Below, piece after piece: positions 14,101 through 25,819 of a stretch of DNA of 64,000 nucleotides; positions within the stretch are counted from its first letter, which is position 1; each line of letters begins with the position of its first letter. The stretch lies in NCBI GenBank assembly GCA_947243855.1, contig CAMXIK010000001.1, forward strand, positions 1 to 64,000. The letters run 5' to 3'. The position numbers and the translations under genes are program-made. A model generated the notes under the pieces. The model searched no databases. It saw only the letters and a program-made list of their open reading frames with translations, and was not told the origin of the DNA. Source of the DNA: an uncultured Lachnospiraceae bacterium. GTDB taxonomy: Bacteria; Bacillota; Clostridia; Lachnospirales; Lachnospiraceae.

Positions 14101-14109
14101 GTGATAAAG

Positions 14110-14316
14110 ATGGCTATTATTTTAAGATTAGACAGAGTTATGGCTGACAGGAAAATTTCTTTGAATGATTTGGCAGATCAAGTGGGGATAGCAAATGTCA
14201 ATTTATCTAAAATAAAAACAGGAAAAGTAAGTGCGATCCGTTTCTCGACATTGAATGCGATATGTGATGTACTGGATTGCCAACCGGGAGACATATTAGA
14301 ATTTCAAAAAGATTAA
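14110..14316 (+). CDS. small XRE-type (YozG-like) HTH regulator
   Basis: A 68-residue Cro/C1-type DNA-binding protein that is almost only a helix-turn-helix: LDRVMADRKISLNDLADQVGIANVNLSKIKTGK, then FSTLNAICDVLDCQPGDILEF. This is the compact YozG form that usually partners a DUF2975 membrane protein, and it probably represses the pair. ATG 14110 has AGGTGA five bases upstream, overlapping the stop of the previous gene, so translation is likely coupled. A terminator follows at 14344. Confidence 0.88.
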   Translation: MAIILRLDRVMADRKISLNDLADQVGIANVNLSKIKTGKVSAIRFSTLNAICDVLDCQPGDILEFQKD

Positions 14317-14440: not shown

Positions 14441-14507
14441 TTTCACACCCAAAATGAAACATTTGGCACCCTGCAATCAGTTGGTAATATGCCAATGCCG
14501 ATATAAT
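14441..14507 (+). promoter_or_regulatory. LytTR-type repeats and promoter of the two-component operon
   Basis: TTTCACACCC at 14441-14450 and TTTGGCACCC at 14462-14471 are direct repeats 21 bp apart, the spacing of two LytTR monomers on one DNA face. TATAAT follows at 14502-14507 with only a poor -35, as in activator-dependent promoters. A closely related block lies at 16730 before the unknown cassette, with the same distances. Confidence 0.65.
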
Positions 14508-14556
14508 AAATGATATTCAGATGTTTTTTATTTTAGGTGCTGAAAGGAAAAAATTG

Positions 14557-15279
14557 ATGAAGATAGCGGTTTGTGATGATGACCGGCCGATCCGGGAAGA
14601 ACTGATTCGTCTGATACAAAGGCAGATATCTGATGCGGATATCACAGAGTTTCAGTCGGGGGAAGAATTGCTCCATGCCGGAGCTGACTTCGATATCTAT
14701 TTTCTTGATATTGAAATGGATGCCGTGTCCGGCATGGAGCTGGCAAGGCATATCCGGGAACGGGAAGAAACCGGCAGGAAAAGGAGCATTATTATCTTTG
14801 TGACAGGGTATCGGGAATACATGGGAGAAGCCTTTGACGTCAATGCTTTCCACTATCTGGTAAAGCCTTTGGATGAGGATAAATTTGCAGAGGTTTTTGC
14901 CCGTGCATGGAAAGAGGCGTCTGTTTTTTGTGAACAGGAAAAGAAGTACATCATGGTGAAAAGCCTTGGCGCGCAGCAGCGATTACTGCTAAAGAATATT
15001 TACTATATTGAGAGCCGCAATAAAAAAGTCATTATCCATACAACGGACAAAACGTTGGAAGTCTACGGGAAAATGGAAGAGTTGGAAAACAGGCTGGGCA
15101 GTACCTTTTACCGCTGCCACAGATGCTATCTTGTAAACATGGAGAAGATATCTGCTTACAGTGCGGATAACATACAGGTCATAAATGGGGATAACCTGCT
15201 CCTTGCAAGGACGAAATATTCTGATTTTATCAAAGCCTATATGCGGTATATCAAAAATGGAGGGATTGTCAATGTTTGA
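14557..15279 (+). CDS. LytTR family response regulator (AgrA/LytR type)
   Basis: A 240-residue regulator. The receiver domain spans about residues 1-120, with acidic pocket CDDD, phosphoacceptor Asp51 in YFLDIEMD and Lys in HYLVKPLD. A LytTR DNA-binding domain occupies about 135-238 (LLKNIYYIESRNKKV, FYRCHRCYLVN, DNLLLARTKYSDFIKAY). Such proteins bind pairs of direct repeats upstream of weak promoters. The frame is open from 14521, but ATG 14557 matches the family start and follows AAAGGA. Its stop overlaps the kinase start by eight bases. It is probably autoregulated through the repeats at 14441. Confidence 0.93.
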   Translation: MKIAVCDDDRPIREELIRLIQRQISDADITEFQSGEELLHAGADFDIYFLDIEMDAVSGMELARHIREREETGRKRSIIIFVTGYREYMGEAFDVNAFHYLVKPLDEDKFAEVFARAWKEASVFCEQEKKYIMVKSLGAQQRLLLKNIYYIESRNKKVIIHTTDKTLEVYGKMEELENRLGSTFYRCHRCYLVNMEKISAYSADNIQVINGDNLLLARTKYSDFIKAYMRYIKNGGIVNV

Positions 15280-16705
15280 TCTGTTGCTTCCGATTTTCAT
15301 GTACCTGATTGACAGTATATTGAGCGTTGTCTATACACGGGGTTTTCTGAAAGAAAAGTATGAGAAAAGGGGAATGCCGGTGATCTGGGCTGGCGTTTAT
15401 TTCCTGATTCAGATTCTGGTATTTACCATAGGAGCCGACAGGTTTCCGGTGGGCATAGCTGCCAGAAGCATCTTAAATATCTGCATTCTGCTGTTCATGC
15501 AGTCGTTTTTCTTCCAAAAAGAGATACAAAAACAGTTTTTTATTACCTTTAGTTTTGTAGCGGGGACAGAGACGGTAAAATATTTGTTCGTTACGTTTGA
15601 TATTGTGGTAAGCGGATGGGGGAATCAGATCTTAGATCATCTGCTCGCAGAGAATATCTTAAATACGGTAGAAAGAACTGAGAATGTGATAACGATCTAC
15701 AATGCCGTAATGACGGTCTTATGCGTATTGTTCTATATCTTGTTATTGTCCGGATTTCTATTTTTCATAAGCAGGAAGTATGTCAAAAAGGACTATCCGT
15801 TACAGACATATGAGAATGTCTTTCTGCTCTTACCCTGCATTGCTGCGCTGTGTATCTCAGTCATCATAAGGCTGATCATCAGTTCGCTGAACAACGGGAT
15901 GGGGATTGTTATCTATGAGACCGTTCCACCGATTCGGTTTTGGCTGCCTGTTGTCGGTGCCTTGATGCTTTCTGACATGATCGCCAGTGTCATACTGTTT
16001 CAGAAACAGGTACAGTACCATGAGGAGACAGGGAAACGTGCCCTGCTGGAAAACCAAGTCCGGCAGATGCAGAAAGAGATCACGGAGATACAGGATATCT
16101 ATAGCGACATGAGAGGGCTCCGGCACGATATGAGAAGCCATTTGGCAAACATCTCCCTGCTTGTCAAAGGTACGGCAGATTCCGTGGAGGAAGAACTGGA
16201 AAGCTATATCGGGAAAATGGAAGAAACGGTCAGCAGGTTAGACTTTACCTATCAGACAGGCAATCCGATCACGGACATTATCATCCACCAGAAAGGGCAG
16301 GAAGCGGAGAAGAAACAGATACCGTTTCAGGTTGATTTCGCTTATCCATGCAACCTGCTGATAGATGTTTATGACATTGCTGTGATCTTGAATAATGCGC
16401 TGGAAAATGCCATAGAAGCGTGCGGCAGGGCAGAGGGTGAAAAACAGATCAGCTTACGTTCTTTTGTAAGAGGCTGTCTGTTCTTTATAGAGGTTGAGAA
16501 TGATTTTGCAGGGAACATTGTCATGGAAAAAGAAAGCGGGCTGCCGGTCAGCAGCAAGGGAAACGGGAAACTGCATGGGATCGGTATATCCAGCATACAA
16601 AGATGTGCGAGGAAGTATATGGGTGATATTGATATTGCAATCTCCGAGACAGACGGCAGGAAGAAATTCAGCCTTACCGTCATGATGAATGGAAAAACCG
16701 CGTAG
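15272..16705 (+). CDS. AgrC-like sensor histidine kinase (GHKL)
   Basis: A 477-residue kinase. Six or seven hydrophobic segments fill about residues 1-255, forming a membrane sensor without a large outer domain, as in peptide-sensing AgrC kinases. A coiled linker leads to the phosphoacceptor helix MRGLRHDMRSHLAN, and a GHKL ATPase domain has LNNALENAIEA and the G-box HGIGISSIQRCARKY. It is the cognate partner of the LytTR regulator, whose gene overlaps it. GGAGGG precedes ATG 15272. I found no agrB or agrD-like gene nearby, so the signal is unknown. Confidence 0.92.
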   Translation: MFDLLLPIFMYLIDSILSVVYTRGFLKEKYEKRGMPVIWAGVYFLIQILVFTIGADRFPVGIAARSILNICILLFMQSFFFQKEIQKQFFITFSFVAGTETVKYLFVTFDIVVSGWGNQILDHLLAENILNTVERTENVITIYNAVMTVLCVLFYILLLSGFLFFISRKYVKKDYPLQTYENVFLLLPCIAALCISVIIRLIISSLNNGMGIVIYETVPPIRFWLPVVGALMLSDMIASVILFQKQVQYHEETGKRALLENQVRQMQKEITEIQDIYSDMRGLRHDMRSHLANISLLVKGTADSVEEELESYIGKMEETVSRLDFTYQTGNPITDIIIHQKGQEAEKKQIPFQVDFAYPCNLLIDVYDIAVILNNALENAIEACGRAEGEKQISLRSFVRGCLFFIEVENDFAGNIVMEKESGLPVSSKGNGKLHGIGISSIQRCARKYMGDIDIAISETDGRKKFSLTVMMNGKTA

Positions 16706-16729
16706 GCCGTTTGACGATATAGTTAGAAG

Positions 16730-16797
16730 TTTCGCGCCCAAAATGGAGCAGTTCGCGCCAAATCTATGAAAAATATTTTGCAGACCGGCGATAAAGA
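16730..16797 (+). promoter_or_regulatory. second LytTR-type repeat block, upstream of the unknown cassette
   Basis: TTTCGCGCCC at 16730-16739 and GTTCGCGCCA at 16751-16760 are direct repeats 21 bp apart. Over 31 positions this block is identical to the block at 14441 at 23 positions. In both, a CGATA sequence lies at the same distance downstream; here the -10 (around 16790-16797) is poor, which fits a promoter that needs activation. Confidence 0.6.
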
Positions 16798-16834: not shown

Positions 16835-16876
16835 ATGGATTTAGGAGTAACGGATAAGTTGGAGGCTGCGTTATGA
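16835..16876 (+). CDS. 13-residue leader ORF
   Basis: ATG 16835 follows GGGAGGAG by about seven bases and encodes MDLGVTDKLEAAL. Its stop overlaps the ATG of the next gene by four bases (ATGA). The strong ribosome site and exact overlap suggest a translated, coupling leader peptide, although chance cannot be excluded at this length. Confidence 0.4.
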   Translation: MDLGVTDKLEAAL

Positions 16877-17553
16877 CAAATATAACTAATTATGACTATC
16901 ATGTTCAAAAGATGGGTGGAGGAACAGGCTCGACATTACCGGGTATGTTTCAGTTTTCGCAATTAAACAGCAACAGCATACAGTCACGATTAAAAGCGGC
17001 GGGTATTGACACAGGCAGCAGGCAGTATAAAGCCGTTATCCGGCAAATGGCAAAGGACGGCTGTACTGGCAGTATGTTTACATGTGTTCAGGCAATTAAG
17101 AATCTGATGAAAAACTATAATGCAAGAGGAGAGTGGGTTGAACCGACTACAGGATTGACAGGCCTGCTTGTAACAGATGAAACGGGAGATAGTTATAAAA
17201 GGATGATTGATATTCCTGAAAGCAGTAAAGAGAAAATGTTTGAATATGTAAAAAATAACTATATTGAAAAAAATGGAATGACGGACGGAGCAGGAAAAAC
17301 GGAAATTTATATGGAGATGTATAAACAAATGGACAGGGATGATCGGTTGTCGGCAGGCTGGACATTGGGCGAGTACCGTAAGGCGTATTCGCAAGCGTTT
17401 GTATCTGCGATTAAGGAAGTTGATCCGGCATGGGCATATGGTAAAGCCATACCTTCGGGTGTCTTGGAGGATATCACAAGGGAGCTTGTGGAAGATAATC
17501 TGAAAAAAACGGACAGTTCTCTTGCACGGGCATCACTGAACATACAGATATGA
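16873..17553 (+). CDS. DUF3879-like protein of unknown function
   Basis: A 226-residue protein with no signal peptide or membrane segment. The N-terminus is Gly/Ser/Asn-rich and low in structure, then comes IQSRLKAAGIDTGSRQYKAVIRQM, which I recall as the hallmark of DUF3879, a family from Lachnospiraceae. Later blocks are QAIKNLMKNYN, IDIPESSKEKMFEYVKNNYI, and YMEMYKQMDRDDRLSAGWTLGEYRKAYSQAFV. No catalytic motif is evident. GGAGG lies seven bases before the ATG, which overlaps the leader ORF stop. It heads the cassette that sits behind LytTR-type repeats. Family assignment is from memory. Confidence 0.65.
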   Translation: MTNITNYDYHVQKMGGGTGSTLPGMFQFSQLNSNSIQSRLKAAGIDTGSRQYKAVIRQMAKDGCTGSMFTCVQAIKNLMKNYNARGEWVEPTTGLTGLLVTDETGDSYKRMIDIPESSKEKMFEYVKNNYIEKNGMTDGAGKTEIYMEMYKQMDRDDRLSAGWTLGEYRKAYSQAFVSAIKEVDPAWAYGKAIPSGVLEDITRELVEDNLKKTDSSLARASLNIQI

Positions 17554-18601: not shown

Positions 18602-19246
18602 ATGATGCAGGTGGGATTAAATAATTACCAGATCGGGAACAGCAATGTAGCTGAGAGGGCAGACAATAAAAAAGTGGAGAAAAAGACAGAGGACAAATAC
18701 GCCAGTGTATCAGCGTATCAGGCATACTTAAAAGATAAATATTCTTGTTTATCTGCGCCTGATTATAAGGTGACGATATCGCCGGCATATTTGGAGAAAT
18801 GTATCAAAAATCCCAAAGAAGCGGAAGAGTTGGAAAAGAATCTGGCGCATATACCGGTCAGCCATCAGATGGCGAAAGCATTTTGGAGTGCCCAAGGGGC
18901 AAGAGTCGTAAATGACGAATTAATCTTTGACGAAAATGGAAATTGTTGCGGCAGCCCTAATACATATGTGACAAACAGTAAATCATCGGACGACAGGGTG
19001 CAGAATGAGGCATCGATGAAAAAAGGGAGGCGGAAAAAGGTTTCACCGCAGCAACATTACGAAAAAAGAAAGTTCCTGAGGGAGCAGTTTGAGGAGCGAT
19101 TGGCGAAGAAGGAGTATTTGAAAGATCAGTTAGAAGAAAAAGAGATGAAGGATGAATTACTGGAAAAAAGCATTTTGTCAAAGGAGCGGAATGCCGGCAG
19201 ATTTATTGAACGATACGAAGCCAATATTTTAAAATTTTCACATTAA
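18602..19246 (+). CDS. DUF6033-like protein, last gene of the cassette
   Basis: A 214-residue cytosolic-looking protein. Residues 35-100 contain VSAYQAYLKDKYSCLSAPDYKVTISPAYLEKCIKNP (in part) and the region EELEKNLAHIPVSHQMAKAFWSAQGARVVNDELIFDENGNCCGSPNTYVTN (in part), which I associate with DUF6033. The rest, about 135-214, is very charged and predicted as a long helix or coiled coil (KKGRRKKVSP, then EQFEERLAKKEYLKDQLEEKE). Function is unknown. GAGGAG lies six bases before ATG. A terminator at 19343 ends the unit. The family name is from memory and should be checked by a profile search. Confidence 0.55.
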   Translation: MMQVGLNNYQIGNSNVAERADNKKVEKKTEDKYASVSAYQAYLKDKYSCLSAPDYKVTISPAYLEKCIKNPKEAEELEKNLAHIPVSHQMAKAFWSAQGARVVNDELIFDENGNCCGSPNTYVTNSKSSDDRVQNEASMKKGRRKKVSPQQHYEKRKFLREQFEERLAKKEYLKDQLEEKEMKDELLEKSILSKERNAGRFIERYEANILKFSH

Positions 19247-22674: not shown

Positions 22675-23667
22675 ATGCAGTTTACAGATATCGGTATTGA
22701 TCTTGGCACAGCCAGTATTTTAGTATATATCAGAGGCAAAGGCGTTGTGTTGAAGGAGCCTTCGGTGGTGGCTTTCGACAGGGACACGAATAAAATTAAG
22801 GCGATTGGTGAGGACGCGCGCCTCATGCTCGGCAGGACGCCGGGTAATATTGTAGCGGTAAGACCCTTGCGACAAGGCGTTATTTCCGACTATCAGGTTA
22901 CAGAGAAAATGATGAAATATTTTATCCAGAAGGCTTTGGGTAAGAAGACGTTCCGCAAGCCCCGTATTGCGGTGTGCGTGCCCAGCGGCGTGACCGAAGT
23001 GGAGAAGAAGGCCGTAGAGGACGCGACTTATCAGGCGGGCGCGAGAGAGGTTTCCATTATCGAGGAGCCTATTGCGGCAGCGATCGGCGCGGGTATTGAT
23101 ATTTCTAAGCCCTGTGGGAACATGATCGTCGATATCGGCGGCGGCACTTCCGATATTGCGGTGATTTCTCTGGGCGGTACGGTGGTCAGCGCTTCTATTA
23201 AGATAGCGGGCGACGATTTTGACGAGGCCATCGTGCGATACATGCGTAAAAAACACAATCTGCTGATCGGTGAACGGACGGCGGAGGATTTGAAGATAAA
23301 GATTGGTTCCGCTTTTAAGCGGCCTGAGGTTGACTATATGGATGTCCGGGGCCGTAATCTGGTGACCGGCCTTCCCAGAACCGTTAAGGTTTCCTCGGAG
23401 GAGACGGAGGAAGCGCTGCATGAGACCACGGTGCAGATTGTTGAGACCATACACAGTGTGCTTGAGAAGACGCCTCCGGAGCTGGCGGCGGATATTGCGG
23501 ACCGCGGTATTGTCCTGACGGGAGGCGGAAGTCTTCTGCGCGGATTGGAAGATTTGATCGCGGCTAAGACGGGCATTAACACCATGACGGCGGAAGATCC
23601 GATGACAGCGGTGGCGATCGGCACTGGAAAATATGTAGAATTTTTGGCAGGATACCGCGAAGAATAA
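22675..23667 (+). CDS. mbl: MreB/Mbl rod-shape determining protein
   Basis: A 330-residue bacterial actin. ATP-binding motifs are visible: DIGIDLGTASILVY at the start, NMIVDIGGGTSDIAVISLGG near residue 145, and GIVLTGGGSLLRGLEDL near residue 280. It polymerises under the membrane and guides lateral wall synthesis. Its position directly before the flagellar rod genes flhO and flhP matches Mbl of Bacillus rather than MreB, which normally sits with mreC and mreD. AGGAAGGGG precedes ATG by about ten bases. First gene of a four-gene unit. Confidence 0.93.
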   Translation: MQFTDIGIDLGTASILVYIRGKGVVLKEPSVVAFDRDTNKIKAIGEDARLMLGRTPGNIVAVRPLRQGVISDYQVTEKMMKYFIQKALGKKTFRKPRIAVCVPSGVTEVEKKAVEDATYQAGAREVSIIEEPIAAAIGAGIDISKPCGNMIVDIGGGTSDIAVISLGGTVVSASIKIAGDDFDEAIVRYMRKKHNLLIGERTAEDLKIKIGSAFKRPEVDYMDVRGRNLVTGLPRTVKVSSEETEEALHETTVQIVETIHSVLEKTPPELAADIADRGIVLTGGGSLLRGLEDLIAAKTGINTMTAEDPMTAVAIGTGKYVEFLAGYREE

Positions 23668-23704
23668 AGCGCATTCTCGGTAGAGAGATGAAGGGAGAAA
23701 CAGC

Positions 23705-24586
23705 ATGTTAAAGGGCTTGTATACAGCTTATACTGGCATGATCAACGAACAACACAGAATGGATGTCCTGACGAACAATCTGGCCAACTCCACAACTAAC
23801 GGCTTTAAAAAGGAGGGTACCACGAGCGAGGCTTTTGATACGGTGCTTGCCTATAAGATCAAAGACTTGTCCGAGCCGGGAAATCTTCCCAGACCGATGG
23901 CAACTAACAGGCCGGTTGACGAGGCGGAGGCAAACAATCCGTTAAATGAGACCTATATGGAAAGAAGAATCAGCAAGACGGGACTGAATTTGGGCGTAAA
24001 GATCGGTGAGAATTATGTGGATTATTCCGAAGGGCCGATCAAAGAGACGGGAAACGTGCTGGATCTGGCTTTGACTGACAGAGGCTTCTTTTCGGTACAG
24101 TATACAAATAAGGCGGGAGAGACTTCTATCAAGTACACGAGGGACGGTAATTTTACGATGAATCGTCTTGGTTATCTGACCACGCAGGATGGCGATTTTG
24201 TGTTGGATGAGGATGGGCAGAGAATCCAGTTGGACCCGGCGCTGGAGATCAGTATTAATACAGACGGCGATATCTTTCAGGACGGCGAGATCGTAGCGAC
24301 GGTTGATGTCACTGATTTTGAAGATTATAATTATCTGGAGCGGTTCGGAGAGAACTTCTTCCAGCCTGTAGATGGAGCTGTGGAGCTTGACAGGGAAGCG
24401 ATGGCCGAGGAGCTTGGTACGAATACAAGGATTCATTCGGGCTTTCTGGAGATGTCTAATATTTCCGTAGTGACGGAGATGGTTAATATGATCGCTTTGC
24501 AGCGCCAGTATGAGAGTAATCAGAAGGTGATCACCACCTATGACGATACGCTTGAACAGGCAGTGACGAACGGCAGAATAAGCTAA
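23705..24586 (+). CDS. flhO: flagellar hook-basal body protein (FlhO/FlgF type)
   Basis: A 293-residue rod-type protein exported by the flagellar secretion system. The N-terminal motif LYTAYTGMINEQHRMDVLTNNLANSTTNGFKKEG (in part) is the flagellar basal-body rod signature. The central beta part has DRGFFSVQYTNKAGETSIKYTRDGNFTMNRLGYLTT (in part). The C-terminus, GFLEMSNISVVTEMVNMIALQRQYESNQKVI, is the paired helix. Length and order next to a second paralogue match flhO of Bacillus. It likely builds part of the distal rod. Confidence 0.9.
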   Translation: MLKGLYTAYTGMINEQHRMDVLTNNLANSTTNGFKKEGTTSEAFDTVLAYKIKDLSEPGNLPRPMATNRPVDEAEANNPLNETYMERRISKTGLNLGVKIGENYVDYSEGPIKETGNVLDLALTDRGFFSVQYTNKAGETSIKYTRDGNFTMNRLGYLTTQDGDFVLDEDGQRIQLDPALEISINTDGDIFQDGEIVATVDVTDFEDYNYLERFGENFFQPVDGAVELDREAMAEELGTNTRIHSGFLEMSNISVVTEMVNMIALQRQYESNQKVITTYDDTLEQAVTNGRIS

Positions 24587-24624
24587 TAAATGTAATTAAT
24601 TTGTAATGTGATAAGGAGGATTCT

Positions 24625-25443
24625 ATGGTCAGGAGTTTATGGTCGGGAGCGACCGGCATGAATGCACAGCAGACAAATGTGGATACGATAGCGAATAATC
24701 TCGCTAATGTCAATTCAGCAGGTTATAAGGCGCAGGTGGCGCAGTTTAAGTCCCTGCTGTATCAGAATTTACATTCCACAACTACCACGGCAAACGGGGA
24801 CCCGAAGCCGACCACTTCTCAGATCGGTTTGGGTGTGCGCACCGCGTCCCTCAATCAGATTTTCAGACAGGGCAGCTTGCTGGACGCCGATTCCGATACT
24901 GCATTTGCGATTGAAGGAGACGGTTTCTTTGCATTGCGCGGCGAGGATGGACAGATTTTCTATACAAGAAACGGTGATTTTACTTGGGCGATCAGCGCGG
25001 GAAACCGTATGGCGCTGACCAATTCCGACGGACTGCCGGTACTGGATTCCGAGGGACGTGCGATTGTTTTAAACGCTGATTACATAGCGAGCAACCTCTC
25101 TATTACGGAGGACGGTCAGATCTGCTATCCGGATGAGCGGAACAATCCCCAGCCCATCGACGTGCAGATCGGCACATTCCAGTTCAGCAATCCCGGCGGC
25201 CTGAGCAGAGTGGGAAACACGCTTTACTCGGTGACAGAAGCCAGCGGCCGTGCGCTCAATGAGGATACGGAGGATAATGTCAGAAAGAGCCGTATCATAC
25301 AGGGATATTTGGAAGGATCAAACGTACAGGTGGCAAACGAGATGGTGAATCTGATTGTGGCGCAGCGCGCTTACGAAATGAACTCTAAGTCCATCACAAC
25401 GTCCGATTCCATGCTTGAAGTAGCTAACAACCTTAAGCGTTAA
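24625..25443 (+). CDS. flhP: flagellar hook-basal body protein (FlhP/FlgG type)
   Basis: A 272-residue paralogue of the preceding gene. It has the N-terminal signature SGATGMNAQQTNVDTIANNLANVNSAGYKAQ and the C-terminal GSNVQVANEMVNLIVAQRAYEMNSKSI. Its centre contains IEGDGFFALRGEDGQIFYTRNGDF. This is the distal rod protein type. GGAGG lies five bases before the ATG. Order mbl-flhO-flhP-flgJ-like suggests one operon and a motile cell, although the main flagellar cluster is outside the window. Confidence 0.9.
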   Translation: MVRSLWSGATGMNAQQTNVDTIANNLANVNSAGYKAQVAQFKSLLYQNLHSTTTTANGDPKPTTSQIGLGVRTASLNQIFRQGSLLDADSDTAFAIEGDGFFALRGEDGQIFYTRNGDFTWAISAGNRMALTNSDGLPVLDSEGRAIVLNADYIASNLSITEDGQICYPDERNNPQPIDVQIGTFQFSNPGGLSRVGNTLYSVTEASGRALNEDTEDNVRKSRIIQGYLEGSNVQVANEMVNLIVAQRAYEMNSKSITTSDSMLEVANNLKR

Positions 25444-25459
25444 CGATAGGAGATAGCAC

Positions 25460-25819
25460 ATGAACGACTTAACGAATTTATCCGCTTACACAGACTACAT
25501 GACAGACACAAACCGCGTGGCCACAGAGCAGCTTCAGAAAAATCTGCAAAATGCGGACGAGGCGGCGAAGAAGAAAGAGGACGACGCCCTCTTTGACGCA
25601 TGTAAGCAGTTTGAGGCGTATCTGTGGGAGCAGGTTTATAAAGAAATGCAGAAAACCGTCGATATTTTCAGCGAAGATGAGGACGGTTACGCTTCCAATA
25701 TGGTAGACTATTTCAAGGATACTGCGATTCAGCAGATTTCAGAGCAGACTGCGACGCAGGGTTCCAATTCTTTAGCGCAGATGTTATATGAACAGGCAAA
25801 GATCAATTACGGTCTATAA
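25460..25819 (+). CDS. rod-binding protein, FlgJ N-terminal domain type
   Basis: A 119-residue protein consisting only of the rod-binding (FlgJ_N) domain: CKQFEAYLWEQVYKEMQKTVD followed by a helical C-terminal part with YFKDTAIQQISEQ and SLAQMLYEQ. It lacks the muramidase domain of enterobacterial FlgJ, as usual in Firmicutes. It probably caps rod assembly. GGAGA lies about eight bases before ATG, and the gene follows flhP by 16 bases. Confidence 0.88.
   Translation: MNDLTNLSAYTDYMTDTNRVATEQLQKNLQNADEAAKKKEDDALFDACKQFEAYLWEQVYKEMQKTVDIFSEDEDGYASNMVDYFKDTAIQQISEQTATQGSNSLAQMLYEQAKINYGL

Follow-up and report, generated by a model that had tools for sequence, protein, structure and literature searches.

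We analyzed 64,000 nucleotides from an uncultured Lachnospiraceae bacterium (GenBank assembly GCA_947243855.1, contig CAMXIK010000001.1, positions 1 to 64,000 of the forward strand; hereafter the window) and found a LytTR-type two-component system whose operon and neighboring gene cassette are each preceded by a block of two direct repeats and a CGATA sequence. The reading that we favor, at a probability of about 0.72, is that the regulator binds both blocks and activates the promoter of its own operon (P1) as well as that of the cassette (P2), most likely via sigma-28, and that the cassette is an exchangeable, flagella-linked one.

Two direct-repeat blocks flank a LytTR regulator–kinase operon

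The operon has the make-up of a two-component system, a regulator with receiver and LytTR domains adjoining a GHKL kinase that has multiple membrane segments (Table 1). Hydropathy analysis of the kinase gave six hydrophobic segments, and its gene overlaps that of the regulator by 8 bp. Directly upstream of the regulator region, at 14101-14316, lies a gene for a Cro/C1-type protein (HTH_26). Elsewhere in the window (22675-25819), two flagellar rod/hook-type genes and a gene for a rod-binding protein come immediately after an MreB/Mbl gene; these flagellar genes lie at 23705-25819.

Table 1. Features of the regulator operon, its putative promoters and the cassette (positions in the window).
Feature	Position	Strand	Remarks
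Block 1, LytTR-type direct repeat	14441..14470	+	half-sites 14441-14449 TTTCACACC and 14462-14470 TTTGGCACC
P1 -10, CCGATATAAT	14498..14507	+	sigma-28-type core CGATA overlapping TATAAT
LytTR response regulator (receiver + LytTR domain)	14557..15279	+	Pfam Response_reg 7.5e-17, LytTR 2.6e-19
GHKL histidine kinase	15272..16705	+	Pfam HATPase_c_5 1.6e-19
Block 2, LytTR-type direct repeat	16730..16759	+	half-sites 16730-16738 TTTCGCGCC and 16751-16759 GTTCGCGCC
P2 -35, near-consensus sigma-28, GAAA	16768..16771	+	16 nt before GCGATAA
P2 -10, sigma-28-type, GCGATAA	16788..16794	+	
13-aa leader ORF MDLGVTDKLEAAL	16835..16876	+	stop overlaps start of DUF3879 gene (ATGA)
Cassette gene 1, DUF3879 protein	16873..17553	+	Pfam PF12995 7.2e-63
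Cassette gene 2, 318 aa	17603..18559	+	no Pfam match at E 0.1
Cassette gene 3, DUF6033-like	18602..19246	+	Pfam PF19498 2.2e-5

The first-pass annotation of this DNA had placed the four 10-mers of the repeats at 14441, 14462, 16730 and 16751, with an offset of 21 bp in either pair and an agreement of 23 out of 31 positions between the blocks, the first block lying before the regulator and kinase genes and the second before the cassette. All of these statements agree with the coordinates that we obtained. When the two intergenic regions were subjected to 2000 mononucleotide shuffles, none matched the real agreement of 23, the maximum being 22. Set against the full 2.7 kb, an identity of 77% over 30 nt is unremarkable, as two 41-nt pairs of coding DNA reach 73-76%; the identity of the blocks is thus not outstanding region-wide, and the decisive support for them is phylogenetic. 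Two details required correction. CGATA, reported to follow at an identical distance in each block, starts at 14499 and at 16789, which is 58 nt from the start of block 1 and 59 nt from that of block 2. The search pattern proposed for further copies, TTTCRCRCCC-N11-TTYSRCRCC, misses block 2 itself, its single match being block 1.

With a corrected consensus, we searched the 3.58-Mb draft genome (81 contigs) and found the full block, at up to three mismatches, solely in these two places, while the reversed control gave 0 matches. The shorter half-site pair likewise occurred at these two places alone when no mismatch was permitted and at four more with one mismatch; at up to three mismatches it fell to background level (262+251 versus 248+261). 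A dispersed repeat, the outcome that would have spoken against the first-pass annotation, is therefore not what the genome contains, as the full block has two copies.

The blocks are conserved at orthologous loci

A search with the regulator as query yielded 80 orthologous loci from other genomes, the best 80 of 257 relatives. Calling a block at a half-site score of at least 16/18, we found one before the regulator in 52 of the 81 sources (window included) and one after the kinase in 43 of the 81. In these sources, block 1 lies at -241 to -96 from the regulator start and block 2 at +1881 to +2210. Among the Lachnospiraceae loci with block 1 whose sequence reaches at least 2450 nt past the regulator start, block 2 is present in 38 of 46; at this threshold it was not found in the remaining eight (L025, L054, L057, L060, L062, L067, L073 and L085), of which L025 has a weaker block 2 below threshold. 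The blocks are kept in orthologues whose regulators are down to about 55% identical. The regulator orthologue itself is patchy, occurring in 3 of the 31 same-genus genomes drawn.

The spacing was measured in the 64 of 78 loci with CGATA 15-200 nt upstream of the regulator, each aligned on the nearest CGATA regardless of repeats. Matches between 9-mers 21 bp apart peaked 58 nt upstream of CGATA, with a mean of 7.20 of 9 positions; elsewhere in the same 64 loci the mean was 2.31 (sd 0.17, maximum 2.61). Among periods of 10-49, 21 alone stands out, the next best reaching 3.59. Paired direct repeats about two helical turns apart upstream of the target promoters were thus found across loci.

P1 and P2 carry a CGATA-type -10 element

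After removal of near-identical promoters, CGATA was found 57-59 nt past the start of block 1 in 37 of 41 promoters (expected 0.30) and 58-59 nt past the start of block 2 in 28 of 29 (expected 0.23). The block-1 promoters without it at this place are L034, L060, L065 (TATAAT instead) and L030 (neither); the one block-2 exception is L022. Judged by comparison with published promoters, CGATA at P1 and P2 is the -10 core sequence known from flagellar sigma-28 promoters, an identification that goes beyond the first-pass annotation. In a printed table, most Roseburia and Eubacterium flagellins have sigma-28 promoters of the form taaa-N15-17-[acgt]cgatat, and the same source gives TAAA-N16-17-MCGATAa as the Butyrivibrio consensus (PMC3720852, parts cited); C. 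difficile SigD promoters are described, in the section cited, as retaining TAAA and CG (PMC3865298).

The two promoters differ in what surrounds this core. P2 of the window reads GAAA-N16-GCGATAA, and across relatives the P2 -35 matches TAAA at three or four of four positions in 24 of 28 non-redundant promoters (23 with three, one with four), against a background of 25%. At P1 the same level was reached in 11 of 37, near the 25% background, which was taken from all CGATA in the loci. Exact TATAAT occurs in 21 of 37 promoters at P1 versus 1 of 28 at P2, and P1 keeps T-A-T-A-A/T-T after CGA in most relatives. To judge from these elements, P2 appears to be a clear sigma-28-type promoter to which a LytTR-type operator has been added, and P1 a CGATA-type promoter without a -35; as its TATAAT overlaps CGATA and is well conserved, sigma-A may read P1 too.

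A gene for FliA/SigD is present on contig 72 of the genome (TIGR02479, 268.6 bits; cut-off 189.6). Of the seven flagellin genes readable in this genome, one has TAAA-N15-ACCGATAT and another TAAA-N16-GCCGATAA; a full TAAA/CGATA promoter was not seen at the other five. A further flagellin N-terminal domain match, on contig 56 (9193-9600), falls within a 1876-aa open frame, well beyond the length of a usual flagellin, and the genome has seven flagellin-like matches besides this one. Since CGATA corresponds to the sigma-28 -10 core and FliA/SigD is encoded, the two-component system most likely acts as a co-activator of sigma-28-type promoters; P1 and P2 share [N]CGATA, not TATAAT, as their conserved element, which likewise points to the sigma-28 polymerase.

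The regulator and DUF6033 co-occur with FlhA

FlhA was found in 129 of 250 Lachnospiraceae genomes. The regulator (E 1e-40) was present in 34 of the 250, and all 34 were FlhA-positive (hypergeometric P 1.5e-11); for DUF6033, present in 81 of 250, the figure was 80 of 81 (1.1e-29), P values that are overstated because the genomes are related and not independent. A control family, AgrB, showed mild enrichment too, with 63 of 98 FlhA-positive against 50.6 expected (P 0.001). AgrB occurs somewhere in 18 of the 34 regulator-positive genomes; the present genome has two matches, on contigs 3 and 17, and none at this locus. For 50 of the 80 orthologous loci, the source genome was examined as well: 46 of these 50 genomes have FlhA, and it was not found in the other four, all of which are MAGs. 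DUF3879 was detected in 6 of 150 genomes searched, each FlhA-positive. In some genomes (G016, G045, G096, G164, G166, G173, G184 and G206), FlhA is accompanied by separate frames of about 210-300 aa with short FHIPEP matches, which are shortened FlhA-like proteins.

The promoter element was also sought at DUF6033 genes elsewhere: a TAAA (at most one mismatch)/CGATA pair lies upstream of 20 of the 30 best-scoring ones, compared to 22 of 283 other control windows and 1 of 30 when reversed. The solitary DUF6033 gene of the present genome, on contig 21, has TAAA/CGATA upstream with one mismatch.

These data bear on a possible, though distinctly less probable, reading, in which the LytTR regulator activates both promoters via housekeeping sigma-A, CGATA is another -10 preference and the flagellar link is incidental. 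The frequent TATAAT at P1 would fit it, as would a paralogue on contig 9 that has the repeat without CGATA, and AgrA and VirR are described at ordinary -35/-10 promoters in the passages cited below. Against it stand P2, where exact TATAAT is confined to a single promoter while CGATA is nearly invariant and a TAAA-like -35 sits at sigma-28 spacing in most cases, and the finding of FlhA in all 34 regulator-positive genomes of the 250. We favor sigma-28 as the most likely form at both promoters.

Co-varying half-sites point to one regulator for both blocks

In five loci that belong to another regulator clade (L069, L071, L074, L075 and L076), block 1 is of the TTCGTGAC type. Block 2 is altered likewise in four of the five, 7 of the 8 half-sites ending in RTGAC; in L071, no altered-type block was found after the kinase. 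More broadly, half-site distance correlates with LytTR-domain distance (r=0.60, 0 of 2000 permutations) in 59 of 69 anchored loci, namely those with a full regulator and at least 6/9 repeat matches; three of the 59 rows (L053, P_C6 and P_C24) are visibly out of register, and shared ancestry alone could yield such a correlation. The joint change of both blocks to the TTCGTGAC type is more telling in this comparison. Taken together, the conservation of the blocks (38/46), their co-change (4/5) and the sharply defined 21-bp periodicity, set at a constant spacing from the -10, support the proposal of the first-pass annotation that one LytTR regulator acts on both its own operon and the cassette.

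At E 1e-40 the genome has four LytTR regulators, one of them at the present locus. The three paralogues, on contigs 6, 24 and 9 (L133, L134 and L135), are 48, 46 and 42% identical to it and are accompanied by half-sites of their own: TTTCGTTCC on contig 6 (period 22), AGTTACTAC/AGATACAAC on contig 24 and CTTTTACAAC on contig 9. CGATA follows at 58-59 on contigs 6 and 24; on contig 9 a 21-bp repeat is present and CGATA was not found. Downstream, the contig 6 paralogue is followed by three DUF6033 matches, that on contig 24 by a relative (79% identical) of a cassette protein of locus L018, and that on contig 9 by a FlxA-like gene (PF14282, 1.6e-14). On contig 6 the first cassette-like gene overlaps or abuts the kinase gene, and no second block was seen between them.

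With four such regulators in the genome and an HTH_26 gene just upstream of the operon, the blocks might instead be repression operators, or be bound by the Cro/C1-type protein or by a LytTR paralogue. We consider this improbable: conservation of the blocks tracks the regulator that they flank, the three paralogues have different half-sites, and the HTH_26 gene gave a tblastn match (E 1e-3) in only 1 of the 80 orthologous loci, L011. Moreover, both blocks are placed as activator sites are, upstream of the -35 position; since the repeats lie 7-8 bp from it, in a setting of the sort described for VirR and AgrA, we infer activation rather than repression. Chance similarity or a functionless dispersed repeat, which the similar pair identities in coding DNA of the region might have suggested, is already refuted by the comparative data, that is, by the two genomic copies and their conservation across orthologues.

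The cassette is a variable slot

Where at least 670 bp beyond block 2 were available, 38 of 40 loci had a same-strand gene starting within 250 nt; in the two exceptions the gene starts at 271 (L030) or its start call falls before the block (L014). A DUF6033-like gene lies within the run in 32 of the 40, and the remaining genes vary by locus. In the window, the DUF6033-like gene scores 24.9 bits, marginally below the curated PF19498 cut-off of 25. The closest relative, L011, whose regulator is 93% identical, gave no DUF3879 match at E 1e-3 and has gene 2 directly after P2. On visual inspection, the leader ORF of the window is similar to the N-terminal end of one L066 cassette protein; together with its overlap with the DUF3879 start, this likeness suggests that an earlier first gene was replaced, the leader possibly being a remnant of it. 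By gene content, then, the cassette is an exchangeable slot associated with flagellated Lachnospiraceae; its products, DUF6033-like and others, are uncharacterised and for the most part soluble. The first-pass annotation had recognized neither this variability of the cargo slot nor its link to flagellated genomes.

A hydrophobic 19-mer occurs in 3 of 48 non-redundant cassette proteins versus 43 of 145 upstream controls. A FlgM-like motif was seen in 5 of the 48 versus 4 of the 145, which is a weak test, and one L030 cassette gene matches FliD_C at 3.5e-5, below the cut-off. In two structure models the N-termini are of low confidence and probably disordered; for cassette gene 2 this concerns residues 1-132. 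The scarcity of hydrophobic segments, the low-confidence N-termini and the association with FlhA would perhaps fit flagellar export of the cargo. A literature search, with most subscription journals outside its scope, returned no paper on DUF3879 or DUF6033 by those names.

Discussion

We propose the following mechanism. Upon stimulation, the six-segment GHKL kinase would phosphorylate the LytTR regulator, which would then bind the two half-sites on the same face of the DNA, separated by two helical turns. From there, 7-8 bp upstream of the -35 position, it would recruit RNA polymerase, most likely in its flagellar sigma-28 (SigD/FliA) form. If transcription starts about 7 nt past CGATA, the half-sites would be centred near -66 and -45. 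Recruitment at P1 would drive the regulator-kinase operon itself, as positive feedback, and recruitment at P2 the cassette. Should the polymerase indeed be the sigma-28 form, the cassette would need both the flagellar state and the signal, an AND-gate that would keep it off unless the flagellar programme runs and the two-component signal is present.

The half-sites of AgrA and of VirR both differ from those at this locus. Their arrangement is nevertheless alike. In the S. aureus agr system, AgrA is described as binding two direct repeats immediately upstream of the weak promoters P2 and P3 (PMC4227749, section cited), and here too a LytTR response regulator is combined with two direct repeats directly upstream of promoters; the differences are the CGATA-type -10 and, as cargo, a variable cassette of uncharacterised proteins. 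In C. perfringens, the cited part of PMC2838878 reports two imperfect direct repeats for VirR, on one helix face and just upstream of the -35, both boxes being required. The VirR/VirS system shares with ours the pairing, the single face and this position, whereas here the genome has just two full blocks, each with a sigma-28-type -10. Promoters of the sigma-28/SigD regulons of Roseburia, Eubacterium, Butyrivibrio and C. difficile resemble P1 and P2 in their CGATA-containing -10; they are described, in the sources as cited above, without a two-component activator site, while a LytTR-type repeat lies upstream here and the -35 is weak or absent. Among the literature matches listed, judged by title or the start of the abstract, none dealt with the present locus or with a sigma-28 promoter under LytTR control.

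What the cargo does is a matter for speculation. The FlxA-like gene beside the contig 9 paralogue recalls E. coli flxA, which is FliA-dependent and, in the passage cited, without an obvious role in motility (PMC4183435). We tentatively entertain, as a wider scheme that as a whole is rather doubtful, that flagellated gut Lachnospiraceae possess a number of LytTR two-component systems, insulated from one another by distinct repeats, which activate sigma-28 promoters of swappable cargo exported via the flagellar apparatus, with the soluble DUF3879, DUF6033 and other products serving as accessory filament parts or secreted effectors.

Ordinary promoters are the known setting of LytTR systems, and an activator is not generally regarded as necessary at sigma-28 promoters. 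The new part of the present locus is the -10: the geometry is that of LytTR regulators such as AgrA and VirR, and the polymerase, going by the promoter element, is most likely the sigma-28 form. If this is true, the combination of a LytTR operator and a sigma-28 -10 would constitute a two-input switch that joins the flagellar programme to an outside signal. A repeat pair with CGATA 57-59 nt from the block start would then serve as a rule for predicting targets of this two-component system in flagellated Lachnospiraceae, and DUF3879 and DUF6033 would gain a first functional context.
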